Positions 31,921 to 60,776 of a DNA stretch of 64,000 nt are shown in pieces. Location: the NCBI RefSeq assembly GCF_032854445.1, contig NC_088303.1, positions 27,569,265 to 27,633,264 of the forward strand, written 5' to 3'. The number at the start of each line of letters is the position of its first letter. Position 1 is the stretch's first letter. This stretch comes from Liolophura sinensis. Taxonomy: Eukaryota; Mollusca; Polyplacophora; Chitonida; Chitonidae. The notes below the pieces were generated by a model. It saw only the letters and a list, made by a program, of their open reading frames with translations, made no database searches and was not told the DNA's origin. The position numbers were made by a program, and so were the translations under genes.

Positions 31921-32184
31921 GGGGCCTCCGTGGCTCAATTGGTTAGCATGTAGCGCAGCATAATGACCCAGAAGTCTCTCACCAATGCGGTCGCTGTGAG
32001 TTCAAGTCCAGCTCATGCTGGTAACCTCTTCGACTGTACACGGGAAGGTATGCCAGCAACCTGCGGATGGTCATGGGTTTCCCCTGGGCTCTGCCAGGTT
32101 TCCACCCACCATAATGCTGGCCGCCATCGAATAAGTGAAATATTCTTGAGAACAGCGTAAAACGCCGCAAATAAATAAATAATA
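31921..32184 (+). mobile_element. SINE-1 copy, full length
   Basis: GGGGCCTCCGTGGCTCAATT head to AAACGCCGCAAATAAATAAA tail, 430 bp after the SYS1 stop. Confidence 0.92.
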
Positions 32185-35891: not shown

Positions 35892-38800
35892 ATGGCTGGA
35901 CAAGTGGCAAGTGACAGGAAAATCTCTGAAGGCTTAGAGCACATCAGACAAGCTGAGAAATGGTAAAATGACACAGAGATTCTAGTAAACTCAGATTAAC
36001 ACGTACATCGTGTGGCAAATGTCACACTGATGTCCACAGTGACACGTCCGTAGAGTCGAAAGTTCTCATTAATATTACAACAACAACAACCGTGTGATGA
36101 ATCAATTACTCAGCCACTGTAGTCGACTAGTGCGACGGAATTTAGATCAGATTGATGCTGTTGGAGACAACACTGTATGCAGCCCACCTGATTTCTGATA
36201 AAGTCAAGTTTGGCTTATGTTTATACCGTTAGGCACCAGTACTCAAGAACCAAGAATTCTATCGATCAGCTAATTTAACAACGTTAAATGTCCTACCTCT
36301 ATATTTTGTGTTTCTGACATTCTGAAAAGGTAAATGTCAGGAATGTTAAATAAGGATGAGATCATTTAGTTCGTTGAATTATTTATCACCAGTTTTGGGT
36401 CCGAGGTGGTTAACACACCAGCGCAGTGCACTGACCGAGGAGCCTCTCACCAATGTGATCTCTGTGAGTTCAGCTCATGCTGGTTTCCTCTTCATCAGTA
36501 AGTGGGAAGGTTTGCCAGCAACCTGCAGGTGATCATGGGTTTCCCTCATTTTATGCCTCCTTCATATGAATCCCCAAGAACATTGCATTCCTTGCAACAT
36601 GCTCTTAATTTAACCACAAAAAGTAAAACAAGCAGTCTTTAATATGTTGACAAAATAATAAATTATCGTAACTTCATAAGCCAAATAGGAGTTTCAACCA
36701 CCAGTGTTAAAAATGCTAGACTGGGTAGTTTTAGATGGGAAAATGGAATATATTATTGTGCAGCATTTATAATGCATTGGTTGTTTTTATACAGATCTAT
36801 AATCCATCTCAGTGGCTGAGGTTGTGCTAGCAGTAACTGCTCTATGAACTGTCAACCTGTATGCAGGAAAGAAAAGACAAAAATTTTATGTCCTGATGTG
36901 ATTGTTTCACAAGGAGAGTAACCCCGGGAAGACATTATTTGGAGTCAGGATGAGTTTGTAATGAAAGAAAGGAAGGGGGTCTTTGTACTGTGCACGATCA
37001 AGTAAAATTATTACACACTTGAACACCCTCCCAAAGCTGTAAAGGCCTCAGAATGGTACTTTTGATGTCAGCAATTAAGGTTTTCAAAGTTCACCAAAAA
37101 AAAATAAAAAATCCTAAGTGTCAATATAAGTTGGATGAATCAGTCAGAATCAAGCAAAGTGTGTCACTTGAAAAAGGTTTTAAAGAGAAGTGCAGTATTT
37201 GTATTTATGTAGTTACTCTATGTTTATTTCGGTCTGGCCTGTTGCTGGCAACTTTCAGAAACATGTAAGGGTCTCCAAATGATAATTTGATGCGAACAGT
37301 TACATATATCATAACTCCAAAGAGGCTAGTTCAGTGATCGAGTTCAGTAAACTGCCACACTATATATTTCTGTATTGCAGCTTGAAGACATCTCTGTTTA
37401 AATGGAAGCCAGATCATGATGGGGCATCGTCTGAGTATACGAAAGCTGGTACGTTCATTTCTTTTCTTTTCTTTTGTTTTTCTGTCCTCTTGATGCTGAA
37501 GTCAGTCTAGTTCTGATGTAGTTACACATTTATGGCATCATGTCAGAGAGTACGTCATCGTGCAGTGAGGAACAACTGGTTTCTCCAAATGCTACCTGGC
37601 TTCCTACAGTTCCGTTTCTGTTATACTACGGTACAAAAAGATCCTAGCACAGTTTAGCACATTCCTGAACCTTACTATACAGTTTAGACATTTGTCAGTT
37701 TCTAAATTTGTATATAGCTCATCAGTACTTTGAGTTTCTGTAATGAGTCAAATTTCTGTGCATTATATTACTTGGACTACCCTAATTCTTTAAGGGCTCA
37801 TGTAAGTGAAATATTCTTAAGTACAAATGTGAGTGAGTGAAATATTCTTGAGTACAACATAAAACACAAGTTGAATAATTCAAATAAATGATTTTTCAAC
37901 CTTTTTAAACACCTGTGAAACAAATGTTTGAAACATATTGAGAGAGAACTGAGGATTGTAGAGAAATACTTTGCTTGCATCTTTAGTGACACGAAGGAAT
38001 CATTTTAGCATCATTGTTATAATTTTTATATGCATAAATTCCACTGATTAAAAGTGATTTAGAGGTTGAAAAGGTTGAACATTGACATTAAGGCGCAGGC
38101 ATGAGAATGAAATCTAAATATCTGTGGTTATACATGTATTTTCTTTTGATGTTTTCGTCTAATGTAATCATGCATTACAAATGAGAGGATATTGATGGAG
38201 TTTTTGGTCAGAGATAATAAGGCTTAAAAATGTGCAAGAAAGAAATGATTGTAGTGGTTATTGGTACTCATGAAATCATTTGAGGAATATTGTTGATGTA
38301 ACCATGTTAAACTACCATAATGTTGCTATGTGTCTGTACTGGTAAGAGGAAATTAACAGTTCTTCTTTGCCGCATCTGAAATGAGCGCTTTAAACAACTG
38401 ATATAGGCTCAGTGTTCAGTCATCTTGATTGATCATCGAAGATGTCCTGTGTCATCCTTGGTTTTCTTTGTGTTAAGTTTGATTGCATCGTGTGTACAGT
38501 GTGCTTTCATGTTGCATTCAAAATAATTTTCGTGAATCGAGTAAAAATTGTATGTTTGTATTTCTGTTCCAGCGACATGTTTTAAGAATGCCAAGGCTTA
38601 TGAGGAGGCTAAGGAATGTTACGTGAAAGCTGCCGAGAGCCAGAAACACATGAACTCGTATCCTTCATATATGTGTAATGGTAGAACGCACAGGCAGAAG
38701 TGCATTCTTCAGAACATGTCAGAGTGCTATGAATTCTGAGAAACTTACGAAGTATATACTGTACAGTGTATAAAACATGGCCACCGCTGTCTGATCTTTG

Positions 38801-41800
38801 AGATTCACTTTACTCAGTGTTGACTTGCCTTCCATCAAAATGGCATACATATTGAGCTAGGACTCTTGACTGATGTATGTTACTTGACTAAAGCTAGTAA
38901 TTTACTCCCTGCAATCGCTTTTCCACCACCCATGAAACTGCCATGTTTCACCTAATGTTTTGTATGGAAATATGCTCATTTAGAAGCACACAAGAACCTT
39001 AAACATATTGAAATGATACTTTTAATGTCTACACTTACGTTTTTGTATAAAAAAAAAAAATAATCAAAGAAATTAATTAGAACTCCTCAAAAACTCATGA
39101 GTGGCCCTTTAAGGTGAATGAATCAGTTTAAATCAGGCGAAATGTGTTACCTGAAAATAGTGAACTTCAGGTGAGTTGCTAAATGTCACTTCTGTTGTGT
39201 ACGTGGAATACTTCTGGAGTAAGCTGTTTAATACACACCTGACAGTTACTCTCTATCTTCGTCTTGTTCAAGACCAGAACAGGTAGGCTGGCCTACATTA
39301 TGTATGCATTGAATCATGTATCTCAGTATCTGGATCAGATCAAGTATTGCGATTAAGTCCCTTTAATGTCATAGTCAGTTTTCTCCTTAACCAATTGTAC
39401 AGACCATTTCATGCAGCCAAGTGAGTATTTTATGTATGACCTAAGCAGAAATTACTTAAGATATAAACTTAACAAGCACCATTCATTAGTACATGTATTT
39501 TATTCATTTATTTATTTGATCAGTGTTTTATGCCGTTTACGCTGAATATTTCACTTATACGTCAGTACATTTATACTTGAATATGTATACATACAAATGG
39601 TTAAAACTGTGTTTTTAAATATGTATTTGAGTAGCGTTTAGTAATATGTGTAGTACTATTTTCTGATAACTGTAAGAAGAGCACTTTGCTGTATTTATTA
39701 AAGTTATTAAGAGGATTTCTCGTAAAACTGTGAAAACTGAGTCTGTAGACATTGAATTCTATATTTCTGTATTTAGCTGAGGAAGCAGCTGTTTATGTTG
39801 ACTGTCTCTGTGTCAGGTCGTACGAGCAGGCAGGACTGATCTGTAAGGAGAACAAAGAGCTGAGTGAGGCGGCGGACCTGATGGAGCAGGCAGCATTCAT
39901 GTTTCAGGAGAATGGCACTCCAGACACAGCCGCTCTAACCCTGGAGAAAGGCGCTAAGTCAGTCACTCTATTGCTCTATGTAAAACAGTATTTTAAGACT
40001 ATACACAGGTCTAACATGTAACACTCTTCCCGCGCTCATAAACTTCCCTAACATCTATAAGTTAAACATTTTTGAAAACAAATCAATCAGTCAGACATTT
40101 CCAAGGATAGGTATTAGTAACTATTAATTATCACATTTAGACAAAAAATGTTGTGTTTAGTATTTAGTCACTGTGGTTTTCAGGAGTATAACTGTGGCAT
40201 CGAGTTTATTTTTCTGTTCACTTTCAAATAATTTGTACTACATTACCAGTTTTATCACAGATAATCGCATCAAATACAGGAATGAACAACAGTCTGCATA
40301 AATAAGGCCCGAATAACTTCAGGAAAGAAAATGTTCCCATTGAGATCTCACAAGTTACAAAGCTTAGAGAAATATTAGTTAAAACAGTCATAGTTTGGTA
40401 TTGAAACACCTGCTGAAGGTTAAAATGTCAACAAACTTTTTAACCATGGTTAATGCTAGGAATATATATGCTCAGGGACTTTAAAACTGTCATTGTATTT
40501 CTTGAAGATTCCTGGAAGAAGAAAGTCCTGACCGTGCCATCTACCTGTACACGAAAGCTGTGGACGTGTCTGAGGTAAGTCTGTCCGTGCCATCTACCTG
40601 TACACTAAAGTTGTGGATTTGTCTGAGGTAAGTCTTAATGTGCCATCTACCTGTACACTAAAGTTGTTGATGTGTCTGAGGTAAGCCTGACTTTGCCATC
40701 TAACTGTACACTAAAGTTGTGGATGTGTCTGAGGTAAGTCTGACTTTGCCATCTACCTGTACACTAAAGTTGTGGATGTGTCTGAGGTAAGTCTGACTGT
40801 GCCATCTAACTGTACACTAAAGTTGTGGATGTGTCTGAGATAAGTCTTAATGTGCCATCTACCGGTACACTAAAGTTGTTGATGTGTCTGAGGTAAGCCT
40901 GACTGTGCCATCTAACTGTACACTAAAGCTGTGGATGTGTCTGATTTAAGTCTGGCTGTGTCATCTACTGCTAAAGTGATGCTCTGAAATCCTACTAAAA
41001 AATTGCAAACTTTGGGATATGTATAGAAGTTAAGGATACAAATAATATCCTCGCAGTGCCTTTTCTAAGAGAATTATGTAGTGTGTTTTTTCTATTCCGT
41101 TTTCAGATAGAAGATAAACCGCGGCAATGTGCAGAGGCAGCTGGTAAAGCTGCTCGGCTGTTGATCAAATGCGGAAGGTAGATGTGTAATCTCAAAACTC
41201 CTTATTTTAAGTGTGTGGAAACTTGATTATATTTTATGTATTTTATTATAGAAATAGGTTAGCAGGGAAATTAGTAATCAGACATGGAAGTGGTGTGGAA
41301 TTGATAATCTGTTGGGGAAGTACAGTGTATTGTGGAAATTGATAATCTGTTGGGGAAGTATTGTGGAAATTAATAATTAGCTGTGGAAATAGTGTGGAAA
41401 TTTATAATCTGTTGTAGAAATAGTGTGGAAATTTATAATCTGTTGTGGGAATATTGTGGAAATTTATAATCTGTTGTGGGAATATTGTGGAAATTTATAA
41501 TCTGCTGTGGGAATATTGTGGAAATTTATAATTTGTTGTAGAAATAGTGTAGAAATTTATAATCTGTTGTAGAAATAGTGTGGAAATTTATAATCTGTTG
41601 TGGGAATATTGTGGAAATTGATAATCAGGTGTGGAAGTAGTGTGCAAATTGATAATCAGACAAGAAAGTGGTGTGGAAATTGATAATCTGTTGTGGTAGT
41701 AGTGTGAACATTGATAATCAGCTGTGGAAGCATCATGGAAATTGATAATGGAAACTGTTATGGAAGATGGTATGCCACTTGTAGATAATTAGATGCAGTA

Positions 41801-44431
41801 ATGCTTTGCTGTTTGTTCTTGCAGATTGGACGAGGCTGTGGAAATGATAAAGAAGGAGATGGAGTTTTACGCTCAAGTTGACAATTATGCGACCATCTGT
41901 AAGCTGGTGCTGGCACTGGTGCTTCTCCATCTGCATAGAGGAGATTATGTGGCTGCTGATCAAAGCTTCAAAAGTTCACTCAGGTCAGTGTCACTGTCAG
42001 TGACAGCAGCTTTTGTATACACCATGTCAAAAGTTCACTCAGGTCAGTGTCACTGTCAGTGACAGCAGCTTTTCTATACACCATGTCAAAAGTTCACTCA
42101 GGTCAGTGTCACTGTCAGTGACAGCAGCTTTTCTATACACCATGTCAAAAGTTCACTCAGGTCAGTGTCACTGTCAATCACAGCAGCTTTTCCATACACC
42201 ATGTCAAAAGTTCACTCAGGTCAGTATCACTGTCAGTGACAGCAGCTTTTCCATACACCATGTCAAAAGTTCACTCAGGTCAGTGTCACTGTCAGTGACA
42301 GCAGCTTTTCTATACACCATGTCAAAAGTTCACTCAGGTCAGAGTCACTGTCAATCACAGCAGCTTTTCTATACACCATGTCAAAAGTTCACTCAGGTCA
42401 GTGTCACTGTCAGTGACAGCAGCTTTTCTATACACCATGTCAAAAGTTCACTCAGGTCAGTGTCACTGTCAGTGACAGCAGCTTTTCTATACACCATGTC
42501 AAAAGTTCACTCAGGTCAGTGTCACTGTCAATCACAGCAGCTTTTCCATACACCATGTCAAAAGTTCACTCAGGTCAGTGTCACTGTCAATCACAGCAGC
42601 TTTTCCATACACCATGTCAAAAGTTCACTCAGGTCAGTGTCACTGTCAGTGACAGCAGCTTTTCCATACACCATGTCAAAAGTTCACTCAGGTCAGTGTC
42701 ACTGTCAGTGACAGCAGCTTTTCTATACACCATGTCAAAAGTTCACTCAGGTCAGAGTCACTGTCAATCACAGCAGCTTTTCTATACACCATGTCAAAAG
42801 TTCACTCAGGTCAGTGTCACTGTCAGTGACAGCAGCTTTTGTATGCACCATGTCAAAAGTTCACTCAGGTCAGTGTCACTGTCAGTCACAGCAGCTTTTC
42901 TATACACCATATCAAAAGTTCACTCAGGTGAGTGTCACTGTCAGTGACAGCAGCTTTTGTATACACCATGTCAAAAGTTCACTCAGGTCAGTGTCACTGT
43001 CATCTCATGTTATGGTAACAGTGCAGTGGTGTGTAATGTTACCTGATTAAAAGATTTGTGGAATCTATATTTGCATTTTATTTGTTTAATTTTTTTGAAG
43101 TTCATCCACAATTATGAAAAATTATATGTCAAAACTTGTGGATGTCTTAGGTGAACATACTAGTACTGTGTGGGCTCTGTAACTCTGTGGGTCATCCTAA
43201 CGGTCGATGGGTATGGCTCTATCTGACGGCCACAGCAGTTCACGTTCTTGTAGTCAAGTGCCATGTTTGGTACATGTATCACTGGCTTGTCTTCTTAATT
43301 TTAGCTACCCTGGGTTTGGGGAGAGTGAAGAGAGCATAGCAGCAGAAGAATTACTGACAGCCTATGACTCTGGGGACGAAGAAAAAGCCAGAATTGTCCT
43401 CGGCCTGCCTCTTTTCAAGTACATGGATAACGCTGTAAGTATTGGCACTGTTCTTGGATAATATTGTATTTCCAGAGTCCATTAATAATGTTGAGAATAT
43501 TACCACAGTCCATGGATAATGTTGTGAGTATTACCACTGTTCATGGATTTTTTGATTGATGTTTTACTCCATTCTCAAGAATATTTCACAAATACGACGG
43601 CGGCCAGCATTATGGTGGGAGGAAACCGGGCAGAGCCTGGGGGGAACCCACGACCATCTGCAGGATGGTGACAGACCTTCCCACTTACGGCCGGAGAGGA
43701 AGCCAGCATGAGCTGGACTTGAACTCACAGCAACTGCATTGGTGAGAGGCTTCTGGGTTATTAGGCTGCGCTAGCGCGCTAACCAACTGAGTCACGGAGG
43801 TCCCACACTGTTCATGGATAATGTTGTGAGTATTACCACAGTCAATGGATAATGCTGTGAGTATTACCACTGTCCATGGATAATGCTGTGGGTATTACCA
43901 CAGTCCATGGATAATGCTGTGAGTATTACCACTGTCCATGGATAATGCTGTGAGTATTACCACTGTCCATGGATCATGCTGTGAGTATTACCACAGTCCA
44001 TGGATCATGCTGTGAGTATCCCACTGTCCATGGATAATGTTGTGGGTATTACCACTGTCCATGGATAATGTTATGGGTATTACCACAGCCCATGAACAAT
44101 GTTTCGAGTAATACCACAGTCCATGGATAATGCTGTATAACCACTCCAATTTGAAAAGTTCACACTGCATCCACTCCAACCTGCTCTGAGAACCTGTTCT
44201 ATTTTGTTTACAGTAAAAGAATGTAGTATTTCTGAAGAGAAAGCAGAATCAGATTAAAGTCTGATGGTTTCATTCAGTTCTTGTCTTTGTTTATGATGAA
44301 AATGCTTCTGTGTCCTACAGTTTGCTAAGTTGGCCAGAGACTTGCGGTTGCCGGAAGGTGGATCATCAGGCGGGCGTTCAACAGGCGGCGAGGGTCAAGA
44401 CGATGACGAGTTTGCAGGCGGCCTGTGCTGA
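35892..44431 (+). CDS. NAPG: Gamma-SNAP (NSF attachment protein gamma), 10 exons, 306 aa
   Basis: Soluble adaptor of the NSF/SNARE disassembly machinery built of TPR-like helical repeats. Exons: 35892-35962, 37381-37448, 38573-38657, 39403-39420, 39817-39957, 40508-40574, 41107-41177, 41825-41983, 43305-43434 and 44321-44431. Phases close exactly, giving 306 aa (human 312). Landmarks are KISEGLEHIRQAEK, SLFKWKPDHDGASSEY, FKNAKAYEEAKECYVKAAES, FHAAKSYEQAG, MFQENGTPDTAALTLEK, LLHLHRGDYVAA, PLFKYMDNA and the acidic tail DDDEFAGGLC. The second last domain (YPGFGESEESIAAEELLTAY) matches the family region YSIPGFNGSEDCAALEQLLEGYD. Intron 3 has U12-type signals. Introns 6, 8 and 9 hold tandem arrays that copy the upstream exon end plus its donor. 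Downstream, an AATAAA at 46377-46382 could serve as poly(A) signal. Confidence 0.93.
36399..36551 (+). mobile_element. SINE-1 fragment (head half) in NAPG intron 1
   Basis: Keeps GAGCCTCTCACCAATGTGAT, AGTTCAGCTCATGCTGG and CAGCAACCTGCAGGTGATCA, and ends after GGGTTTCCCTC. Confidence 0.85.
37796..37888 (+). mobile_element. SINE-1 3' fragment with a short internal duplication
   Basis: GTGAAATATTCTTAAGTACA is followed at once by GTGAAATATTCTTGAGTACA, then CATAAAACAC...CAAATAAATGA. Confidence 0.75.
37892..38079 (+). mobile_element. MITE family A copy
   Basis: TTTTTCAACCTTTTTAAAC start, GAGGTTGAAAAGGTTGAAC end, internal TTGAAACATATTGAGAGAGA. In NAPG intron 2. Confidence 0.85.
38658..39402 (+). 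other. U12-type intron (NAPG intron 3)
   Basis: The donor GTATCCTTC at 38658 matches the U12 consensus. TCCTTAAC at 39384-39391 is an exact U12 branch site with its adenosine about 12 nt before the acceptor at 39402. The intron is in phase 2 and directly precedes the 18-nt microexon. Confidence 0.85.
39403..39420 (+). CDS. NAPG: 18-nt microexon of NAPG (exon 4)
   Basis: Bounded by an acceptor ...TTGTACAG and a strong GTGAGT donor. It adds one base to the preceding TC (TCA, Ser), then CCA TTT CAT GCA GCC, then AA completed by the next exon (AAG). The join reads KHMNSPFHAAKSYEQAG, matching the family segment LFHAAKAYEQAG that is otherwise missing. The intron before it carries U12-type signals. 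Gene-prediction programs often miss exons this short. Confidence 0.88.
39498..39565 (-). mobile_element. SINE-1 3' fragment
   Basis: TTTATTTGATCAGTGTTTTA and GAATATTTCACTTATACG, between the NAPG microexon and exon 5. Confidence 0.75.
40533..40975 (+). repeat. 53-bp tandem array copying the NAPG exon 6 end and its donor
   Basis: Eight units including the genuine exon end. Each unit has about 42 nt of exon 6 (TGCCATCTACCTGTACAC... TGTCTGAG) plus about 11 nt of intron (gtaagtctgac). GT-AAG donors survive at 40575 (the real one), 40628, 40681, 40734, 40787 and 40893. Two copies have lost GT (40840 and about 40946). The period is not a multiple of three. Confidence 0.93.
41240..41760 (+). repeat. 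About 31-bp minisatellite in NAPG intron 7
   Basis: Imperfect units of the form TGTGGAAATTTATAATCTGT plus TGTGGGAATAT fill most of the intron up to the exon 8 acceptor. The core resembles TGTGGAAATGATAA in exon 8 (41825 onward), so derivation from that exon is possible but weak. Confidence 0.85.
41968..43005 (+). repeat. 59-bp tandem array copying the NAPG exon 8 end and its donor
   Basis: Eighteen units spaced at exactly 59 bp from the real donor at 41984 to 42987. Each holds 16 nt of exon 8 (TCAAAAGTTCACTCAG) followed by intron sequence GTCAGTGTCACTGTCAGTGA and a CAGCAGCTTTT tract. The unit at about 42928 carries a stronger GTGAGT donor than the real exon. Long open frames across it (for example 42013-42711) are products of the repeat, not a gene. 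Confidence 0.95.
43417..44140 (+). repeat. 31-bp tandem array copying the NAPG exon 9 end and its donor
   Basis: Units CATGGATAATGCTGTGAGTA plus TTACCACTGTC repeat about 20 times. The first unit is the exon 9 end itself (CATGGATAACGCT|GTAAGT, encoding YMDNA). Most copies keep a GTGAGT donor in the same place. A minus-strand SINE (43549-43804) interrupts the array. Confidence 0.92.
43549..43804 (-). mobile_element. SINE-1 copy inserted in the NAPG intron 9 array
   Basis: Nearly full length on the minus strand. CACTGTTCATGGAT lies on both sides, fitting a 14-bp target duplication, though it is also part of the host repeat. Confidence 0.9.
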
Positions 44432-44869
44432 GAAGAAAGGCTTTGTCTGATTGGCTGCCTCAAAGGTTAGCATTCTATGTTGAGGTACAACAGCTTGGTG
44501 GGTCATAGCTCTCATACAGCAAAAGGAATGGTTGGAGCCACATATATTCCTGCAGGGCTTGATAAAATGCATAACGTTAAGCATGAACAATTATGTAGCA
44601 ATTTATCATTTTCCAGGGAGAATTTTGAGCGTACACCGCCAGAGGTAATACACATGCTTTTTTTTTAACCCTAGACAGACAAATTAATTTGACTGAAAGC
44701 CAGAAGGTATTGACAGAGCTGTGGGATTTAGGTTGGCAAACATTTTGGGATGTCATAGGATATTTCATATAATTATGGGATATTTCTTTGAGAGACATAT
44801 TTGGGATAGTACATGTGTGTGATATGAGATATTTCATGTTTTACATGTATCATAGGATTGGTCATGAAT

Positions 44870-45560
44870 GATGTCTGATGATATGGCATGGGATATGTTA
44901 CATTATCATGGAATATGTCATGAGTTATATCTGATGATATGCCAGGGATATATTATCATGGAATATGTCATGCATTATGTCTGATGATATGCCATGGGAT
45001 ATGTTATATTATCATGGATTATGTCATGAGTTATGTCTGATGATATGCCATGGGATATGTTATATTATCCTGGAATATGTCATGAGTTATGTCTGATGAT
45101 ATGCCATGGGATATGTTATATTATCCTGGAATATGTCATGAGTTATGTCTGATGATATACCATGGGATATGTTATATTATCCTGGAATATGTCATGAGTT
45201 ATATCTGATGATATGCCAGGGATATATTATCATGGAATATGTCATGCATTATGTCTGATGATATACCATGGGATATGTTATATTATCCTGGAATATGTCA
45301 TGTGTTATGTCTGATGAAATGCCATGGGATACGTTATATTATCATGGATTATGTCATGAGTTATGTCTGATGATATACCATGGGATATGTTATAATATCA
45401 TGGAATATGTCACGTGTTATGTCTGATGAAATGCCATGGGATACGTTATATTATCATGGATTATGTCATCTGTTATGTCTGATGAAATGCCATGGGATAT
45501 GTTATATTATCATGGAATATGTCATGAGTTATGTCTGATGATATGCCATGAGATATGGTA
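44870..45560 (+). repeat. 56-bp minisatellite downstream of NAPG
   Basis: Units with ATGTCTGATGATATGCCATG plus GGATATGTTATATTATCATG recur at 56-bp spacing. It lies 440 bp after the NAPG stop, possibly within its 3'UTR if the AATAAA at 46377 is used. Confidence 0.9.
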
Positions 45561-45724
45561 TGTGAGTATTAACACTGATTTTGATTGTACATGTAAATTG
45601 ATGTTCTGTTAGATAGTACGTCTTACCTAGAGGTCGTCTTTGTTAACTCATTTTAACTGTTCACTAAAAATAGAGTCAATATAAATGGTCCGTAAATGTA
45701 GCTGAAGTGTCTCTTAAAATACTG

Positions 45725-45798
45725 TAATTCTTCAACCCAGTAGGTACATAAATCACACTGAAAATTGCCCTTTAATATGCGAAAAGGTTGAGGAATTG
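45725..45798 (+). mobile_element. MITE family B, deleted short form
   Basis: TAATTCTTCAACCC and GCGAAAAGGTTGAGGAATT ends with only about 40 bp between, including GCCCTTTAATATG. Confidence 0.7.
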
Positions 45799-46376
45799 GG
45801 GTAGTCAATAATAATGTCAGCAAATATATCTCATCATGCTTTGAATGATTTTATTATTTTGAGATATGCTCTCTGACATTATGAGTGTACATATTAGTTT
45901 GCCACACACACTGGTAAAAGTTGTGATTTTGGCCTTCATTGCCTGCAAGTCATAGTTTGCGGGAATTTTTTTTTCAAATTTCTCGCCTGTCATGAACATA
46001 CTTGTGAGTTTGAAAAGTATCAGTGTTTCTTTTGCATCCAATATTTGTGTGTTTTAACATTTTAAGTCTAACAAGTAGGTACTTGGTCCAGTTGTTCAAA
46101 AGTGTATGAGTAGTCCAGCTCAGTATTGACCTTAGTCTGGACTTATATGCCCATGAGTTTTGTAATAGGCCGAGACTGGTATTAAGATTTAGGCCTGGCT
46201 TAACTTTGAATGCACTTGTGAAAATCTTGTTCCTGATAACTAAATTATGTGCATGTGTGAGCAGTTTCTCCTGCTAATGAAGATTAAGAGTTGACTTTTT
46301 GTGTGCATGTAAACGTACTGGTAGTATCTTTTGTAACAGGCATAACTGATGTTCATTTATTATGGTCACAAACTTA

Positions 46377-46382
46377 AATAAA
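46377..46382 (+). promoter_or_regulatory. Candidate poly(A) signal for NAPG
   Basis: AATAAA, 1.95 kb after the NAPG stop, the first clear plus-strand hexamer outside repeats that I noticed. Weak evidence without transcript data. Confidence 0.3.
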
Positions 46383-46955
46383 CCTGTACATTTATGTATA
46401 TATTAATTTGCCATCTCTTGTTATATAGACATTTGCGAAGATTTTTCTGCGTGTTTTTTCCTTTCCCATCTTATATTTATGAAATGTTTTATTCTGTACA
46501 GCTGAAGTCAGAATTTAGATTAGTACGTTTACATGTATAAATACATATAATGTTTATATTCAACTGAGTCTTAGGGGTTTTTTTTATTATTTAAAGATCA
46601 GTATATGTTTGTATATAAATAGTTTGTTACCAAATGGCGTGTAACTTAAAATGTATTTAATAGTAAGTTCTAATTGTCATGTACATGGGTTATGTTTTTA
46701 TTTTGTTCGTGTTTTAACCTGCATATTTGAGGATTATATTTTACTTGTGACAGTGTGATCAGGTTTATGCTGTGAGGAAAACAGATGAGAAAAATCCTGC
46801 TTATCAATAGCATGCACCAAACATTGAAATCAAGCTGTGAATACATTGGTCGTAGAGAACATGTGTATATGTATCTTCATTGTATTCAGTTGATAAAGAT
46901 TTATTTAAGTGATTCTATTCCAATGTATTAACTGTACAAATACTGTCTTTCATCT

Positions 46956-47146
46956 AACGCTGTGAGTTCAAGCCCAGCTCATGCTGGCTTCCTCTCCGAC
47001 TGTACGTGGGAAGGTCTGCCAGGAACCTGCGGATGGTTATGGGTTTCCCCCACGCTCTGCCCGGTTTCCTCCCACCATAATGCTGGCCGCCATCGTATAA
47101 GTGAAATGTTCTTGAGTAAGGCGTAAAACACCAATCAAATAAATCC
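46956..47146 (+). mobile_element. SINE-1 copy, 5' truncated
   Basis: Starts at the B-box (CGCTGTGAGTTCAAGCCCAG) and ends ACACCAATCAAATAAAT. Confidence 0.9.
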
Positions 47147-47369
47147 AATAACAATCTTTCATCTAAAGTTTAGCATTTTTCTGTCGACACATTTTTCTTG
47201 ATTCATCCGTCTTAAGATGGCCGCTGAATTTCTTATCAGTAACATTTAAGTGTGAGCATCAAAAGTATCAGTGTACGTCCTTTATGTGTTTCTGAAAGTG
47301 CATGTTTACATAGCAAACTTAAGATGAAATACAGTACTGTAAATGACCTAATATTTTGCCCAGTACTGT

Positions 47370-47550
47370 AAATGACCTAATATTTGGCAAATAAATGTTA
47401 CAAAATATTACTTTTGGTGCAGAAACTTTCTGTCTTGTAGGATATCATGCTGCTTTCCAAACAAACCTCAAAATACCTTGCTGCGATCAACAGAACTTTC
47501 AGAATGTGGCAAAATGTGCAACTGTCCTGGGCGAAGTTTTAGGTCATTTG
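47370..47550 (+). mobile_element. MITE family C copy
   Basis: AAATGACCTAATATTTGGC and TTTTAGGTCATTTGCCA are inverted ends. Internal ATCAACAGAACTTTCAGAAT and TACTTTTGGTGCAGAAACTT. Confidence 0.75.
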
Positions 47551-47692
47551 CCACAATTTGTTTTATGTGCCTAGATGTGATTAGATCATATGCTGAGTAC
47601 AAACTGCTTACCTGACACATTTTGTCTGTGCTGTCCCCATGACTGTAATCCAGGAGGCCTATAACACTGGGGGTAAGGACTGGGAATAACAT

Positions 47693-47787
47693 GACGGCTG
47701 CCAGCATTATGGTGGGTGGAAACCTGACACAGCCCGGGGGAAACCCACGGCCATCCGCATGTTGCTGATAGACCTTCCCACGTACTG
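47693..47787 (-). mobile_element. SINE-1 middle fragment
   Basis: GCCAGCATTATGGTGGGTGG to GACCTTCCCACGTAC only. Confidence 0.85.
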
Positions 47788-48591
47788 GGGAATAACATGC
47801 ATGTAAAAGTGTGACAAGTTGTTGAAATTTGTTGTTGATTTCAGTTTAGATTTTTATTTGCCTGCAGACATCATTCCTCCAGGAAAGCGTCCAGATTAAT
47901 GTGTTCTACTCAGAGCATTCTATAGCTCTCAGTTCATCTGTTGGTTCATGTCTTTAATATCCTACATGAAAAATTTCATAGACATGTGTGTACATGTAGG
48001 CCTACTTCACTCAACTGCTCAATAAATTGACAGAAAGTAGATTCTGGTTTTGTTGTCATTTTATGTCAAGAGTTATAAGTCATAATGGGTTGACTTTGTG
48101 ACATGTAGACCAATACAAATCAGAGGTTATGAAACATGGTGAAACAGTGTACTTGGTAAGACAAAGGGTTGAAGAAATTTTGAGCCAACAGCAGGGGTAA
48201 ACTCACATAAACTCACATGGAAATACCATCTTCACAGAGATTTGTCTCTTTGATTTGTTGATTGAAGGGACAAGGTCTTTTCAGAGGCTGCAGTGGGAAT
48301 CCTACAAATCCTATGAAACATGCTTGTCCTGTTTTCTGTATTTCACCTAAAGTTTACCTTGTATTTTTTTTTTTTGCATATTTCTGACTGATTAGTCCAC
48401 TTCCTAGAGTCACTTAATAATGTGTTATTACAAAGTTTTACCAACTTCTCCCCAGAAATTACCAGTAAAAGTTGTTGTTTAAAGCCTTTATGTGCTTCTG
48501 GAATTGAATTTAACTTACCAAACTTAAGAGGACACAGTAAATAAAACAAATTGACTGTCCAAGTTCCACAGTACCACAACTGAACAGTTTG

Positions 48592-48720
48592 ATTTGTTTA
48601 ATTCTTTGGTGTGCTTTACATCACACTCAAGAAAGTTTGAGTTTATTGTTAGAAGAAAAGTGTGAACTTAAGACCCTTAGCAAGGGATAGACCTATCAGA
48701 TCTCCTGACTGAAGGCCAAA
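48592..48720 (-). mobile_element. Old SINE-1-like fragment
   Basis: TTTAATTCTTTGGTGTGCTT and ACATCACACTCAAGAAAGTT resemble the minus-strand 3' end. Confidence 0.45.
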
Positions 48721-51092
48721 GTGGAGCAAGCCAAGGCAGAATTTGAACCTTGACCATTTCTGGTCATCAGAATGTACCTGAGAGACCTTCAATCTTCTTG
48801 ACATGAAGGTGTATATTTTAAAAATCATGTAACTTCCAAAACTCAACTATCATAGTCACATTTTTTTGGACCATTTTACTTTTATAATAATGATTGTGTT
48901 TTCATTGGTACATTCACAGTTTGATATTTGAGTAACCTATGGTTAATACTGTAGGAACTCAAGCAGTTTTCACATACCAGTACTGTGCAATAGCAGTCAG
49001 GTTTATTGGTGGAAGAAACCACACAGAGCCTGCAGGAAACCACACAAAAGCCCAAGGAAACCACCTGGTTTGTCTGGAAACTCAAAAATCCCTTGACACA
49101 AAGCTTCTGCCAAACCAACAAGACATTGATTTTCAACACTCTTCACTGGATGGAAGTTTGTGTTTCACCTACAAAGCAATCGTCTTCGTGTGGAGGAAAT
49201 CAGACATTGTGTGACAAACTACCCCTCAAAATTCTTGACAGGAAGCTTTATTATATTAAAATCACATAATCTCACTGACTTAACACTCTGTTATTTATTT
49301 CAATGTTGTTTCATAAAATTGTAAAAACGCTTGAATAATTAAGAGAATATCATTACTTGTTATTTTGTTGCATTTTCGATTATGTTGTATAATATTAACT
49401 GTTTAATCAATACTACTTAATGTTATAGTGTACATGCCAATGCTACATTTGGGCAAATTTGCCTGTGCTTGACCGATTGGTCGAATCGGTGTTCATGTAA
49501 ATGGAGAAAACACAAAACACCTGAAAAACCTCTTTATTTCAAGCTACAGTCAAAACAGCTAGAGTCTGATTTGAACAAGTGGTTTGTCAACCTAACTGGC
49601 CCAAATATGGTCCAGAGCGTTAAAACCATCAGAAACAGGCCAACCTCAGAACCCGACAAACTTTCTGACATGCCTGCATCTTTAAGTGTTTACAATATAT
49701 CAGTGCACAACATCACTAAGTCCTATAAATACAATAGAATTCAAATTTATTACCTATATTTAATATCACAAATTTTAATATGACATGAAGCAATAATTTT
49801 AAAGAAAAATAATTTTAAAACAATGAAAGACAATGATTATTGTCAAAATGAAATGTTAAAAAAATGGCTTTCATTCCATAGTGAAAACAGAAGTCTTAAA
49901 ATGCTATTATAAAAAAGAAGGTCAAGGTCAGAGATCATGTATACTTGTACTAAAGCCATCAAGAGATTCCAAACACCGTGGAAAGCTTATACAAAATGAT
50001 CCATATGACAGATTTTCAACAGCTTTTTTTTGCTTGACCGGATGCATACATTAGAAATGATGTAAACACTAATGCTTCAAGGCCTTTGGGGCAAAAAGAG
50101 TTGACAATGAGACAAGAGTTCTTCATATTGATGATATTGCATGTTCATGTAAGCTGTCACTTTTTTAACCTTGCAATTTTAGGCTGAACTATAAACAATC
50201 GTGTATGCAAAGTAAATGGTGGGACAAAAATGTCCGTATCACAGACATTAGATACATTCTGTATCTGACACACATACACATATCTCATGATGTTCAACAT
50301 TACGAGTAATTAAGCATCCAAGATCAAAATTGTGTGTTCACAGCTAATTATTACAAAATCCACCCAGTGACATTTGGCTTGAGCAAGGTCAAAGTCTTTC
50401 AATAAAGTTATTTGCCACCACTGGCAAAATATGTGACATGGTTTTGGCAGACACGATTTTAATTAAAACCTTCAAGGTCATGATCATCATAAATTAACAT
50501 AACTGAATGACCTTGAAAAAAAATATCACAGTCATCAAGGTCACAATCTTTATTAGTTAGGGTCATCGCCTTAACAAACATGTTGTGTATATGACATTTA
50601 AAAACTTGGTACCTTTGCCTTTAAGAAAAAATTATACATGTTTAAATAATAAAATCTCGCATCCAATTTAACAAAATATATCACAGTTGTCATGGGGTTA
50701 AAAAAGGGAGCATTTGTTGACCTTTGGTGGTGTTTTTCACCATTTCATGTTAGTGTGTGGCGCAGAGTGCTTCCATGGCAACAAAAGTATATGCTGATAA
50801 CAGTTAGAGAGAAACTATTGAAATGAACCCATAATCATGCAGTTACTTACATGTATTTGTTTATTTGTAGATTATCATCTTGATCATTTATAATGATGAT
50901 TTAACCAACCAAACTTTGATTTTGCCAAAGGTTAGTCTGAATGCCGTCATATTAACAATACTGACACAAAATGCCTTGAAGATGACGCCAGTCTTAAGAC
51001 TCTGCTTATTGATAGCATGCTGTCTTCTCCATTTTATCAATCAAGTTAGCTGACATGTTTATCAACACAAATAGCTCGAGTCATGTTGTTTG

Positions 51093-54000
51093 TCACGTCT
51101 TCTTCAACATTTCCACTAACTTATACATTTCCCGCAGCTGTTTTCTTCTTTCATTCTTGCAACCTGAAAAGAAAATAAGATCATTAGCTTACTGCTATCC
51201 TACAATCTGTTTTACAGTACATTTTCTGTATGTTTCACCTCACCTTCTACCACAGAAGCTAAACTAGTTTGTGCTAAAACTAGCTTGGGTGGTCGTAGCA
51301 CTACTTGGTAGCCTCAGTGGCCGTAGCACTACTTGGTAGCCTCAGTGGCCGTAGCACTACTTGGTAGCCTCAGTGGCCGTAGCACTACTTGGTAGCCTCA
51401 AAGGCCTATATGTGCATCATGTAGCGAAAATTAAGAAGCCAGTGCTTATCGTCATGTAAAGATGACATGTGCCATGTAAAGAAGACGTGTCATGTGAAGA
51501 TGACGTGTCATATAAAGATGTCATCTTTACATGATACGTGTCATGTGAAGATGGCATGTCGTGTAAGTTGGCATGTATCATGTAAAGATGACATGTTTCA
51601 TGTAAAGTTGACATGACAAAGATGACGAGTCATGTAAAGATTAATGAACTCACAAGGGAGCATGTAAGATTTTGCCAATCATCGCATAATGTGTTGACTG
51701 GAATTACGATAATTAACATTGTACCCACAATTTTAAAATCATTTCTTTTGAAGCTAGAATATCATGTATGTACCTTCCAAAAAAGATCAACAGAACCCTC
51801 AGAACCAGACAAAATGTCCAACCTGCTCAAGGTGTCAAGAGACCCAAGCTAAAGTGAGCTAAAGTAATGTCAAATCTGTAAAGGTCTCACTTACATGCTG
51901 TTGGGATTATATGCTATAGACTTACCGAGGAAGGAGTTCGCGACACTCTCCACTGTGGACGTTCCGCCGTCAATCTGTAGACTGGCCTCCTCTGCTAGCA
52001 CTGGTCCATCATCCCAGAGGAGGTCAAATCCACCCACATGCTTCTCTCTGCCCGTTAGTCTGGTCAACACAGATCAATACAGTCAGGTAAACAAACTCAC
52101 CCACACGCTTCTCTCTGCCCGTTAGCCTGGTCAACACAGATCAACACAGTCAGGTAAACAAACTCACCCACACGCTTCTCTCTGCCCGTCAGTCTGGTCA
52201 ACACAGATCAACACAGTCAGGTAAACAAACTCACTCACACGCTTCTCTCTGCCCGTCAGTCTGGTCAACACAGATCAACACAGTCAGGTAAACAAACTCA
52301 CCCACACGTTTCTCTCTGCCTGTCAGTCTGGTCAACACAGATCAACACAGTCAGGTAAACAAACTCACCCACACGTTTCTCTCTGCCCATCAGTCTGGTC
52401 AACACAGATCAACACAGTCAGGTAAACAAACTCACCCACACGCTTCCCTCTGCCCGTCAGTCTGGTCAACACAGATCAACACAGTCAGGTAAACAAACTC
52501 ACCCACACGTTTCTCTCTGCCGGTCAGTCTGGTCAACACAGATCAACACAGTCAGGTAAACAAACTCACCCACACGCTTCTCTCTGCCCGTCAGTCTGGT
52601 CAACACAGATCAACACAGTCAGGTAAACAAACTCACCCACACGTTTCTCTCTGCCGGTCAGTCTGGTCAACACAGATCAACACAGTCAGGTAAACAAACT
52701 CACCCACATGCTTCTCTCTGCCCGTCAGTTTGGTCAACACAGATCAACACAGTCAGGTAAACAAACTCACCCACACGCTTCTCTCCGCCCATCAATCTGG
52801 TCAACACAGATCAACACAGTCAGGTAAACAAACTCACCCACATGCTTCTCTCTGCCCGTCAGTCTTGTCAACACAGATTAACATAGTCAGGTAAACAAAC
52901 TCACCCACATGCTTCTCTCTGCCCGTCAGTCTGGTCAACACAGATCAACACAGTTAGGTAAAAAAGCCACCCATACACTTCTCTCTGCCCATCAGTCTGG
53001 TCAACACAGTCAGGTATATAAACTCCCACCCCCACCCCCACCCACCCCCCGCCCAAACACACTTCTCTGTCTGTCACTTCGGTCACAGTCAGCTAAACAA
53101 ACCCATACATACGCTTCTCTCAGCTAGTCAGCCTGGTCAACACAGTCAGGTAAACACACCCACCCACACACTTCTCTGCCTGTCACTCTGGTCACAGCCA
53201 GCTAAACAAACCCATACATACACTTCTCTCTGCTCGTCAGCCTGGTCAACACAGTCAGGTAAACGCCGCTCACCCCCCTCCCAACATGCCTCTCTCTACC
53301 TGTCAATCTGGTCAAAACAGTCAGGTAAACAAACCTCTCTCTACCCATCAGCATGGTCAATACAGTCAGGTAAACAAACCCACCCACATGCCTCTCTCTA
53401 CCTGTCAATCTAGTCAATCCAGTCAGGTAAACAAACCCACCCACATGCCTCTCTCTACATGTCAATCTGGTCAAAACATATCAACACAGATTATTTAAAA
53501 CAAACCTACCCACACCCAGATCATACCTGTTCTCCAGATCAAGTATATTTATGACATCCGTCAGAAGGCCGTATTTGAGCTGGTAATCTTCTTTACCACT
53601 GGCTGTCAGTGATGGGGATGCATTGATTTCAATCAGCCATCTGCAACAACAACCATATAGAAGAATAATTATAAAGATGAATATGAACATGAAGTCATGC
53701 TGGCACCAGTATTTGCCAAAGATTACACCAGTAACATCTCTCACAACAGGAATCCTTATAACATACAATGTACAATTCAAACCACCGCTATCACACATGT
53801 GTCCCCCAATTTTTCCACCAAATTGTCGTGGCACGATTCTTGCATATTGAATTGTTTAAATTTCAGAAGAGAAGACCCGAAAATTTTGTGTAGGTCTATG
53901 ATGTACTTATTCATGAAAACCTCTGCTCTTATAATGAACATCTGATATCACACTTTTATGGTCGTGGGTTTCCCCCAGGCTCTGCCCGGTTTCCTCCCAC

Positions 54001-57000
54001 CATAATGCTGGCCACCGTCGTATAAGTGAAATACTGTTAAGTACGGCATAAAACACCAATCAAATAAATAAATAAATAAATAAATATCACACTTTTCCAC
54101 TATTCATGTTTATATATGTGACACCGATTATTACAGGGTAAGTATAGGTAAGTGTGTTTTTCTGATTGTTGTTTAACGCCGAAGAATTTTTCACTTATAC
54201 AACTGCAGTCAGGATTACCAGTGGAGGAAAGCAGAGTGCCCAGGGAAAACGACTGACCTTTGGCAAGTTACTGATGAGCTTTCCAGACACTGATGGACAC
54301 TTTATTGGTAGAAGAGACATCTTCCAATAGACGAAACTGAACCACCATGACTCCCACAAGCAGTGAAAACAGAAGGATCTACAATTTCCCTGTGCCAGGA
54401 TGGGGTTGGAACTTGAACCTCAAACACTAACTGGAGTGAAAGCACCTCTCAGCAAAGGCCTCCTCCCCAGTTAATTATGATTAGAATACCCCGAACATGG
54501 TCTGACCAAACAAACAAAAAAATGAGAATAACTTACGGTTTCAGGTCACTGTCCAGTAAGATATCATAACCATACATTTCAAAGCAGTGCTTGTCATTGA
54601 TGATGAGTTTCTGGACACTTTGTAAGCTCTTAATGATAATGTTGTCCACCTGCTTGAACAAGGTCTTCACCTGTAAGAAAACAGAACACATTATATTTCA
54701 TGAGCTGAAATTGAAAGAAAAATTGAAGTCATAATTGAGGCCTCTGTGGATCAGTTGGTTAGCGCGCTAGCGCAGCGTAATGACCCAGAAGCCTCTCACC
54801 AATGAAGTTGCTGTGAGTTCAAGTCCAACTCATGCTGGCTTCCTCTCCAGCCCTAAGTGGAAAGGTCTGCCAGCAAGGTCTGGATGGTCAGGGGTTTCCC
54901 CGAGCCCGGTTTCCTCCCACCATAATGCTTGCCGCCATCATATAAGTGGGATATTCTTGAGTACGGTGTGAAACACCAATCAAATAAAATAAATAAATAA
55001 ATAAATGTAAGACATAATTTATTATACCATTCGTAGTTTATAACAGCCTGATGCCCTGGATTACAGTGGATATGATTTGAATGGCTTCTTCAGTAAGACA
55101 CCATATATTCACATACTGAATATTTTGATGAATTATTGAGTGAATTTGATTGTTTGGTTTTAAAAAAAAGGCATTCTGCACTGCAATATATGTTAAACCA
55201 TTGGTTCAAGCCATCAGAATAATAGCCATGTCAAGGTCCTTAACAAAATCAAAAATGCCAGAATTTTGTTGAAAATGGTCCAAAAACCTTGAACAATAAC
55301 TCATCTTGGTGAATTCATGTACCAAGCAATGAACCATTATGAAAGTCCAACAAACTGTTTCACGGCAGGTTGATGGACACACTCATGGACAAACAGACAT
55401 GACAGATTGATGGACTAACACACTCAGACAGACAGGCAGACATGACAGACTGATGGACTAACGCACTCACGGAAAAACAGACATGACAGACTGATGGACT
55501 AACACACTCATAGACAGACAGACAGACATGACAGACTGATGGACTAACACATTGATGGACAGACAGATATGACACACTGATGGACTTACACACTCACAGA
55601 CAAACATGACACACTGACGGACTAACACACACAGAGACAGACAGACATGACACACTGATGCACTAACACACTCACAGACAGAGAGGCATGACAGACTGAT
55701 GCACTAACACACTCACTGACAGACAGACATGACAGACTGATGGACTAATACACTCATAGACAGACAGACATGACAGACTGATGCACTAACACACTCACAG
55801 ACAGACATGACAGACTGATGCACTAACACACTCACAGACAGACATGACAGACTGATGCACTAACACACTCACAGACAGACAGACATGACAGACTGATGGA
55901 CTAACACACGCACACAGACGAACAGACAGACATGACAGACTGATGGACTAACACACTCACAGACAGACATGACAGATTGATGGACTAACACACTCACAGA
56001 CAGACAGACATGACAGACTGAATGACTGACACACTCACAGACAGACAGACATGACAGACTGAAGGACTAACACACACACACAGATGAACACACAGACATG
56101 ACAGACTGATGGACTAACACACTCACAGACAGACATGACAGATTGATGGACTAACACACTCACAGACAGACATGACAGATTGATGGACTAACACACTCAC
56201 AGACAGACAGACATGACAGACTGAATGACTGACACACTCACAGACAAACAGACATAACAGACTGATGGACTAACACACACACACAGACGAACAGACAGAC
56301 ATGACAGACTGATGGACTAACACACTCACAGACAGACATGACAGATTGATGGACTAACACACTCACAGACAGACAGACATGACAGACTGATGGACTAACA
56401 CATTGATGGACAGACAGATATGACACACTGATGGACTTACACACTCACAGACAAACATGACACACTGACGGACTAACACACACAGAGACAGACAGACATG
56501 ACACACTGATGCACTAACACACTCACAGACAGAGAGGCATGACAGACTGATGCACTAACACACTCACTGACAGACAGACATGACAGACTGATGGACTAAT
56601 ACACTCATAGACAGACAGACATGACAGACTGATGCACTAACACACTCACAGACAGACATGACAGACTGATGCACTAACACACTCACAGACAGACATGACA
56701 GACTGATGCACTAACACACTCACAGACAGACAGACATGACAGACTGATGGACTAACACACACACACAGATGAACAGACAGACATGACAGACTGATGGACT
56801 AACACACTCACAGACAGACATGACAGATTGATGGACTAACACACTCACAGACAGACAGACATGACAGACTGAATGACTGACACACTCACAGACAGACAGA
56901 CATGACAGACTGAAGGACTAACACACTCACAGACAGACAGACATGACAGACAAGGTGTAATCCCATAGACCCCTCAAGGATGGGTGAGGAACTAATAAAA

Positions 57001-60000
57001 CATTATTTAAAACCGGCACAAAAATGCAGGAGTCAGATGAACAGATTGCCCAGTTAAGGTTGAATGCCATAAAATTATATTTTTTGAGCGTGAGGTGGAA
57101 ATGATAACCTAAGAATCATGATTTTATTCTGTAACCCTTTTACTTTATAAAAATTTTTTACACTCAAAATGCAGGAAGAAAACAGGAGCCAGATAAAGAG
57201 ATTTAACTGATCAATTCATCATACATAATGGGATATTTTCCACAACGTGCAATACAATCACTATATGAATACCTGTCTACAGCTGTATCAGCAACAACTC
57301 GCTGTCGGCAAGAACTACTGCACTGGATTTATATTTGTCGTTTCCATCATCAAAGTAGTACACATGGCATTTATTTATGACCTGATGTCAATTACAATCT
57401 AGTCCATATATTAATATCATCTCAGAATGGCCAAACACAGACCCCCACAAATGGTAATAAAAACACTGCAAGTCTTACTGCAGGAAGTCCGTGTTTAGCT
57501 GTCAGGTACTGGCGTAGCTGTTGGGTCGACCACTTGCAGCCCTTCTCCGGGTCGTAATCCGGCGCCGTCTTCTGAATGGCTACATTGGTCAGATGGACGT
57601 CTGAGCCGAAGGTCAAGGCCATTGTGTTACAGATTAGTGCATCTTTCATGAGCAATAACAAAAGAAGTCTTTGTCATGCATGTGTGATAGGTACATGTAG
57701 AAGTCCCATTGACGTCCACACATTTTACATGTGAAAACTAAACATAAACAAAGGGAGAGAATGGCTAAGAAGTCTACAACTACATTCTGTCATGCACTTA
57801 ACACACAATAGAGAGTATTAAGGGTAAAAAACAGTTTCAGACAGTAAAAACTGGAAAATAAACTTTCTATACCGTAAACCTTTTTGATCTGTGATTTAAA
57901 AGCACTTTTTTAGTTGAATTCTTCCATACATTTAGTATGAAAATGACGCTAAAATGATCTGTATGTGTCATAACACTGTGCAATTATTTCTCTACCCCTA
58001 TAGTTCTCTCAGAATGTTTCAAAATATTGGTTTCAGAGCTGGTTGCAAAAGATGAAGAATGATAGTACTTTAACTTATTCTATACATGCATGTACTTATA
58101 TACACCCTCCATGTTTTATAGGGAATAAATCCAGACCAGAGAAAATTTTGCCATAACTGATATCATAAGACGGCACAGGCTAATAAGACAAATATTCAGT
58201 ATAATCTTGACATTCATACGGTTTTAAAGTCACATTTAGATGCAATTTAAGCAGTAAAACAATTACTGCATAGCCGTATAAATACATCTTCAAAGCTGCC
58301 CAGTTGTTTGCACATTACACTGTCACATACAACATCTACGAGCAGAGAATAAGAACACAATTTCTATAACTTCAAAGTATAGAAGAATAATAAAGAAGAT
58401 AATAGAAGAAATAAAGAATAAACACAAGGTCAGCATCAAGCATATGTTTTTTTGGGGACAACCAAAATGACCCACCCAAAAAAGGTTCCCCACCTAAAAA
58501 GTTCCCACTGGGTTTTGGGCGGGAATTTCTTTTTTACTATTTCTTAATGTCAGCTTTTTGAAATCCAGAGGCCTCTACTGCTCAGTTGGTTAGTGCGCTG
58601 GTGCAACGTAATGACCTCTCGCCAATGCGGTCATTGTGAGTTCAAGTCCAGTCCATGCTGGCTTCCTCTCTGGCCATACATGGAAAGGTCTGGCAGAAAC
58701 TTGCGGGTGGTCATGGGTTTTCCCCGGGCTGTGCCCGGTTTTCTCCCACTACAATGCTGGCCGCCCTCATATAAGTGAAATACTAGTATTCTTGAGCACG
58801 GCGTTAAACATCAATCAAAATAAATAAATAAATATATATAAAATCCATATCCCTTTCTTCAGCCAGAATCCTGATCTACCTTATTTTTCTCACAGGGCTG
58901 GGTTTTCTCTAATAAATAATTTTTTGAAGATGGCCTATTAGTTTATATGCATATGTTACCCTCCACTCATGAGCAAGAGTCATTTGATGACTTGTCAAAA
59001 AGGATACAAGCATCCTCAATAGAGTCCAGGGAAAATCGTGTGTTGGAAAACCGAGCAAATCCACTTCTATACAACCAGACCTTCAGTGGCATGAACTACA
59101 GGTACGAAAAAAAAAGAATAACAAGAGTGCTTTTGATAAACAGCTGTAACGGGATTATCTACACAATTAGCATTCTTTTTCAAGGAGTCTTGTTTCAATC
59201 CGTAAACGATTTTAGTATAGATATTATAAAGACTGAAATACTATTTAAAAAAACAAACATGTGCATACACTTTAACATTCACAACTTGAAACAACTCAAT
59301 ATCCACACCAAATCTCCATCATTATAAAGCATGTATGTGCATACACAACCACAGCTTTTGAACAAATTAGTTGAACCAGTTCTCTGTAAAATTGGGGCCT
59401 CCGTGGCTCAGTTGGTTAGCACGCTAGCGCAGCATAATGACCTAGGAGTCTGTCACCAATGCGGTCGCTGTGAGTTCAAGTCCAGCTCATGCTGGCTTTC
59501 TCTCCGGCCGTATGTGGGAAGGTCTGTCAGCTACCTGCGGATGGTCGTGGGTTTCCCCTGGGCTCTGCCCGGTTTCCACCCACCATAATGCTGGCCGCCG
59601 TCGTATAAGTGAAATATTCTTGAGTACGGCGTAAAACACCAATCAAAAAAAAAAAAAAAAAAAAATCTCTGTAAAATTGCATTGTTAATATGAACATTTC
59701 ACACTTTTTTCCAAACATTTGCCAATGTGAATGAATAAACAAATCAACAAATGATTATGGCTTAATGCCACCTTGGCAATACTGTAACCATATTGTGGTC
59801 AGAGCATTGTTTTAAGCACAAGACAGTTTCTGAAATATACTCTAAATGAGCTCAGATTTCGCCCACATAACTGTAGTTTTAGAGGCAAATAAATGTAACA
59901 AACTTTTATTTTTGGTGCTGAAACATACAATTTTCCAGTAGAATATCATCCTAAGTTCCAAATAAACATCAAAACTTGTTTCTAAAATTAATAACACTCT

Positions 60001-60726
60001 CAGAATCAGGAAAAATAAACAAGTTAGTCATAGACGAAATATATGGTCATTTAGGGAAAGCCAAAGCTAGGTGGCTTGGATTAAACCACGGTACTTACTG
60101 ACATGACCAAGGCATAGATCCTGATATCAAACTTCCTGCCTCCAATCAGGTAAGGTCTCTCCAGGTAACGCTGCACCACATACGTCTCTGGCAGCTGCTG
60201 ATTGGGGTCGGGCTGAGGTTGATACTCTCCCTTAGAATCAGAGGGGTAAACAATCAAAAAAGGTGTTCTTTAATAGCTCTGTTACTAGTAGCTAACAAAA
60301 AGAGCTGAAGTTTTTAAAGTGCCACAGAATGCTTAAGCTTAAAAAAAACTTGATTTCTTTGTTTATTCAAAGAAAAACAAAACTTGTTGCTTTGATCATT
60401 TCTCAATTAAATCTGAGCCACACTGTTTTTTCAGAGAAACCTGGTCCTTCACAATTTTTGAGAAAGTTTTACAATACCTATGGTAAACAGATCATGATTT
60501 ACTAAATGCCATTCATCTATGTACTCCGGTGGTAAACCCCCCAAAAAAGGGGGACTATTATCTTGAAGTCACATATTACATAGATATCAATACGTGTGTA
60601 ACAGGATATATACGTGTAAGTGCTTTCTACCTCCAAGCTGGAGGGAATTTCCATTTAGTCTAATGGTAGAAGCACAGACTCCAAACCCAGAGAACATTGG
60701 TTCAAATCCCGAGCTGATAGGCCCGT

Positions 60727-60776
<50 letters not shown>

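Follow-up and report, generated by a model that had tools for sequence, protein, structure and literature searches.

Minisatellite arrays built from exon–intron junctions in the NAPG and TTLL9 genes of the chiton Liolophura sinensis

The NAPG (gamma-SNAP) and TTLL9 genes of the chiton Liolophura sinensis were analysed in a window of 64,000 nucleotides (C9:27569265-27633264; genome 609 Mb). Four minisatellite arrays in these genes, with units of 53, 59, 31 and 67 bp, all extend beyond the intron into an exon, so that each unit repeats the exon edge together with its splice site. Such arrays belong to a class already named mirages in lancelets. We believe that they are most probably mirage-type minisatellites that arose largely independently of the junction and are tolerated through the use of the outermost site in splicing.

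Anatomy of the arrays and choice of the splice site

The arrays were delimited by Tandem Repeats Finder (TRF) and then read unit by unit (Table 1). This reading bore out the first-pass annotation, which had described four separate arrays built from exon–intron junctions in the two genes. Its figure of about 20 copies for the 31-bp array was too high; about 15 (4.4 + 10.7) were found. The similarity of the unit to the exon was compared with that of 200 shuffled units. No shuffled unit reached it for three of the arrays, and for the 31-bp array p was 0.005.

Table 1. Positions of the junction arrays, host genes and related features (numbered from the first letter of the window)
Feature	Position	Strand	Remark
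53-bp array, 8.4 copies	40523..40968	+	NAPG exon 6 / intron 6 donor; exon 6 end 40574
59-bp array, 17.5 copies	41968..43002	+	NAPG exon 8 / intron 8 donor; exon 8 end 41983
31-bp array, first part, 4.4 copies	43418..43548	+	NAPG exon 9 / intron 9 donor; exon 9 end 43434
31-bp array, second part, 10.7 copies	43806..44136	+	NAPG intron 9
tRNA-like SINE	43538..43804	-	Within the 31-bp array; ends approximate, recognised by eye
67-bp array, 14.6 clean copies	52031..53009	-	Acceptor of TTLL9 exon 52059-51926
67-bp array, degenerate continuation	53010..53478	-	Reaches near the preceding TTLL9 exon 53640-53527
31-bp array of NAPG intron 7	41327..41749	+	Exon origin unsupported in in-gene comparison
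NAPG (gamma-SNAP) gene	35892..44432	+	10 coding exons
NAPG exons 1-5	35892-35962, 37381-37448, 38573-38657, 39403-39420, 39817-39957	+	
NAPG exons 6-10	40508-40574, 41107-41177, 41825-41983, 43305-43434, 44321-44432	+	
TTLL9 gene	51093..62752	-	3' ten exons modelled

The 53-bp unit is almost wholly exonic. Its joints read GAGGT/AAGTC, so that a donor is re-formed at every joint; five of the seven internal donors of NAPG intron 6 are intact, and the other two positions no longer are. The 59-bp unit includes 16 exonic nt, and its array holds 18 CAGGTNAG donors, the genuine one counted. About 13 of the 31 nt are exonic in the 31-bp unit. The 31-bp array is split by a short interspersed nuclear element (SINE) with a 12-bp repeat (ACTGTTCATGGA) on both flanks, which indicates that the array predates the SINE insertion. 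The same SINE family was seen by eye elsewhere in the window, for example at 31920-32170, 54750-54995, 58560-58830 and 59390-59660.

The 67-bp unit at the TTLL9 acceptor includes 29 exonic nt (exon start 52059), and 18 CAG/R acceptors were found, the genuine one included. Together with its degenerate part, this repeat fills nearly the whole 1467-bp intron. At 52100-52904, most clean units contain the acceptor followed 26 nt on by a strong donor-like TGGGTGAGT, where the genuine exon has GGGTGGAT. Judged from its sequence, the TTLL9 array thus offers a series of potential pseudo-exons of 26 nt.

The direction of copying could be read in NAPG intron 6. The unit of exon 6 codes for Ala, and the same residue is Ala in 113 of the 119 listed homologues (Ser in four and Thr in two). 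Six of the seven full internal copies have Val, and Ala is kept in the innermost one. This indicates that the exon state is older than the internal Val copies, and that the exon is the seed of the array. A G and two C of the exon 6 unit are changed to T in 7, 6 and 7 of the seven internal copies, respectively. In intron 6 the boundary unit is seen to escape homogenisation; the middle of that array drifted together, and both end units differ from the middle. The units of intron 8 are too alike for such escape to be judged.

The National Center for Biotechnology Information (NCBI) proteins of NAPG and TTLL9 are those expected from splicing at the outermost site in every array. The first-pass annotation had placed the genuine boundary in the first unit everywhere. 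This holds in window coordinates, but not in the transcript: there the genuine donors of NAPG are the 5'-most and the genuine acceptor of TTLL9 is the 3'-most, each of them being outermost. Its proposal that the copies are tolerated through outermost-site splicing fits these proteins. When NAPG exons 6, 8 and 9 were extended to 7, 17 and 8 internal donor positions, an early stop was met in all 32 cases. Donors were also scored with a weight matrix. The genuine donor of intron 8 scored 9.2, and among its 17 copies, 14 were equal to it, two scored 7.6 and one 13.1.

Recurrence in the genome and origin of the arrays

In the explanation that we prefer, a short segment straddling an exon–intron boundary by chance would be duplicated in tandem, by slippage or unequal exchange, and the array would then extend into the intron. 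The exonic unit would be held by coding selection, and the intronic copies would drift and be homogenised among themselves. These copies would be inert decoys with near-perfect splice sites. Splicing would take the site that lies nearest to the exon's other end, in keeping with exon definition; the mRNA would thus be unchanged and the array tolerated. Given the density of minisatellites in this genome, a few per cent of junctions would carry an array. Within this explanation, how the duplication arose and how splicing chooses its site are the parts that we infer, while the anatomy, the role of the exon as seed, the recurrence in the genome, the outermost site in the gene models and the lack of special conservation of internal donors are observed.

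The frequency of junction arrays was estimated on kinesin exons. A search of the genome for the kinesin motor domain gave 132 exon matches, and the first 93 by rank were taken. The sample comprised 90 stretches covering 91 matches (two in one exon were merged), with 39 matches outside it. Two matches were skipped, one lying within the L050 stretch and one in an open frame beside L080. The flanks were 1.5 kb in 30 stretches and 450 bp in 60. The 76 helicase exon matches that were located stand outside the junction counts. A junction array was present in six of the 90 kinesin exons, at the donor in L057, L076, L085, L100 (2.4 copies only) and L104 and at the acceptor in L044. Relative to the 172 kinesin junctions located by script, this corresponds to 3.5% (95% interval 1.3-7.4%). 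The boundary or the array position was set by eye for L044, L076 and L085, and L068 was added by eye.

The first-pass annotation had suggested that minisatellites arise preferentially at junctions. This would be a process tied to transcription or splicing and acting above all at 5' splice sites, with R-loops, stalled spliceosomes or AG/GTAAGT microhomology, as at the joints of the intron 6 array, as candidates. We consider it unlikely. In the 90 kinesin exons, the near edges of arrays numbered 6, 5, 4 and 3 per 64 bp, from the exon through three successive intron bins. The first intron bin held L040, L099, L055, L085 (acceptor side) and L068; the second held L095, L105, L114 (acceptor side) and L048; the third held L114 (donor side), L069 and L039. 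Edge density thus declines smoothly from exon to intron, and no significant junction peak was found in this sample (probability of at least 6 with a mean of 4, 0.21), a test that a preference below about twofold would escape. The suggestion had rested on the window's four cases, which are post-hoc.

Preferential birth draws support from a test of tandem splice motifs. The donor motif MAGGTRAGT was searched in three copies spaced 20-50 bp apart, with the reversed motif as the only control, which limits what the enrichment can say for such birth. The genome gave 1180 matches vs 350 for the reversed motif, matches within one array being non-independent. Over the initial 14.9 Mb of C1, as far as the listed donor-motif matches extend, 15 donor-motif arrays stood against 4 reversed ones (p 0.01). 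This count replaced a ratio of 7.3, which came from unequal stretches of C1 and was dropped in view of an apparently higher array density in the opening megabases of this contig. The listed arrays of the tested motifs seem denser at the C1 start (first 15 Mb) than further in. A spacing of 51-81 bp gave 1469 vs 333 matches; many of the listed places are every-second-copy matches of the 20-50 bp arrays, and the count was rejected as independent support. The acceptor motif YTTNCAGG gave 2314 vs 1651 matches against its reversed control, and no clear excess was seen on the first 6.5 Mb, with 6 vs 11 arrays (p 0.33). The contrast between the two motifs would be expected if arrays were born preferentially at donors. 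Random fall of arrays within genes would also enrich the donor motif, however. By our rough estimate, arrays at no more than a few per cent of junctions could yield the donor excess; the excess is not by itself proof of preference.

Donor arrays outnumbered acceptor arrays 5 to 1 in the kinesins alone (p 0.22) and 8 to 2 when the window was added (p 0.11), a combined sample that includes the window's four arrays as a post-hoc pick. Birth favoured at donors would give such a ratio, but selective loss of acceptor arrays would explain the asymmetry too. The bias is suggestive only, either of biased birth or of the removal of harmful acceptor copies. If birth were coupled to splicing at active 5' splice sites in this lineage, which we think improbable, thousands of junctions would carry decoy donors, and introns would lengthen inward from the exon edge.

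Several observations weigh against seeding without regard to the junction or against the use of the outermost site. A donor bias such as the 8 to 2 count is not what purely random birth would give. The gradient of array edges comprises 18 edges only, some of which are both ends of one array, as seems to be the case in L114 and L069, and some of which were placed by hand. Of the donor-motif arrays of C1, eight distinct ones were inspected, and six of these were not tied to an exon. The other two begin in homology-confirmed exons. One is an ankyrin exon by homology (L010), and the other matches a "helicase-like protein" of PDB at E 1.8e-18 (L023) and has an array of 35.8 copies. The use of the outermost site is deduced from NCBI protein entries, which are possibly predictions. 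Finally, the internal donor at 42928 (CAGGTGAGT) outscores the genuine donor of intron 8, so that the strength of the sites cannot account for which one is taken. The L023 gene is one that we take to be Mot1/BTAF1-like. A further C1 candidate, L018, was read by eye as a PKD2-type exon; it had no Pfam or PDB match and was not counted.

Constraint on the copies and relation to known mirages

The copies might instead be functional, forming a bank of alternative sites that steers isoforms or lowers protein via nonsense-mediated decay. We regard this as very unlikely. The full consensus is kept in many copies, as in the donors of intron 8, and the strong internal donor TGGGTGAGT in most clean TTLL9 units would allow pseudo-exons; both would be expected of functional sites. 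Constraint was measured on eight donor arrays, three in the window and five elsewhere, with the genuine unit excluded; two of the eight had themselves been found via the donor motif. Divergence from the consensus was 7.0% at the nine splice-site positions vs 5.4% elsewhere in the unit (p 0.04, the copies being non-independent). No sign of special conservation of the internal donor sites was found among these eight arrays; if anything, conservation is lower there than in the remainder of the unit. All the internal NAPG positions tested truncate the protein, which speaks against functional copies, although control by decay would need the same. Among the best 120 NCBI proteins clustered at 90%, there is one protein per gene for this locus.

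An assembly artefact, with copies collapsed or expanded, is the least likely reading of all: tandem repeats are hard to assemble, and one amphioxus mirage is reported to have been misassembled in a draft genome, but the chiton copies are not identical to one another, one of the arrays is interrupted by a SINE, and arrays of this build are also present in further genes on different contigs, with contigs up to 96 Mb. The exact copy numbers may be off.

In the lancelet study, mirages are minisatellite-like duplications of intron-exon boundaries, described for the globins of amphioxus after a first report for Adh3, on either side of the intron (PMC3087553). The BflGb6 mirage there differs in copy number between two haplotypes, with 3 and 6 units, and mirages are given no apparent effect on regular splicing and are proposed as a source of introns (PMC3087553). 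Copy-number polymorphism is also known at lancelet Adh3. Similar arrays are reported in another paper for lancelet PGBD5, with TnC cited as a further case (PMC3902484). As in the lancelet mirages (Adh3; globins BflGb6 and BflGb9; TnC; PGBD5), the chiton unit spans the exon-intron boundary in all four arrays, the arrays stand at the donor or acceptor side, and the AG/GT signals are copied in many units. Escape of the boundary units from homogenisation is likewise shared, as seen in intron 6 of the chiton NAPG gene. The chiton differs in having a mollusc as host, several arrays in one gene and an estimated per-junction rate. The 35.8 copies of L023 also exceed the 3 and 6 units of the BflGb6 haplotypes.

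No mollusc mirage was found in the literature, in a search limited to open-licence papers. As far as that search reaches, the phylum and the per-junction rate are new and the class is known; the novelty is therefore smaller than the first-pass annotation implied. Reported mirages now span lancelets and a mollusc. In fission yeast, intron gain from 24-nt tandem repeats has been described (PMC3629103). In the Rogers model of intron gain, a proto-splice site is duplicated, and duplicated segments bearing AGGT or AGGC can supply splice sites. Unlike this model, the chiton arrays lengthen existing introns. Junction arrays offer a route for the lengthening, and perhaps the origin, of introns from exon edges.

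A few per cent of junctions with up to dozens of near-identical sites represent a natural experiment on splice-site choice. Site strength is nearly constant across the copies, and so position must decide. Exon definition and the donor/acceptor asymmetry become directly testable in the chiton genome.

Host genes and other arrays of the window

The joined NAPG exons encode a protein of 306 aa that does not differ from the gamma-SNAP entry of L. sinensis at NCBI, and residues 8-306 align with the gamma-SNAP structure 2ifu. The TTLL9 exon model equals the NCBI L. sinensis protein of 442 aa, except for an unplaced 12-aa exon and the 5' end. C9 may carry a second TTLL9 gene, represented by L. sinensis P0146 and P0164 (TTLL9 isoforms X1 and X2), with 68% identity to the TTLL9 of the window. 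The genes at 24641-24844 (-) and 28424-31488 (+) are presumably COX4 and SYS1, respectively. SYS1, TTLL9 and a COX4 gene also lie on human chromosome 20.

For seven other arrays of the window, similarity to exons was sought in NAPG, TTLL9 and SYS1. The ordinary intronic minisatellites of the window overlap the junction arrays in period range and copy number and lie in the same genes. Unlike the junction arrays, none of the seven significantly matched an exon flanking it, and their best match to any of these exons had p 0.025-0.78. Some likeness to the beginning of exon 8 made the array of NAPG intron 7 a candidate for a fifth junction case; it was rejected, since it shares a 9-nt core only and its best match is an exon in a different gene. 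Likewise, no significant exon match was seen for a 41-bp array that covers 1.6 kb of a TTLL9 intron (55377-56951). The window as a whole is dense in minisatellites, with 51 TRF rows in 1-64000, overlapping rows included.

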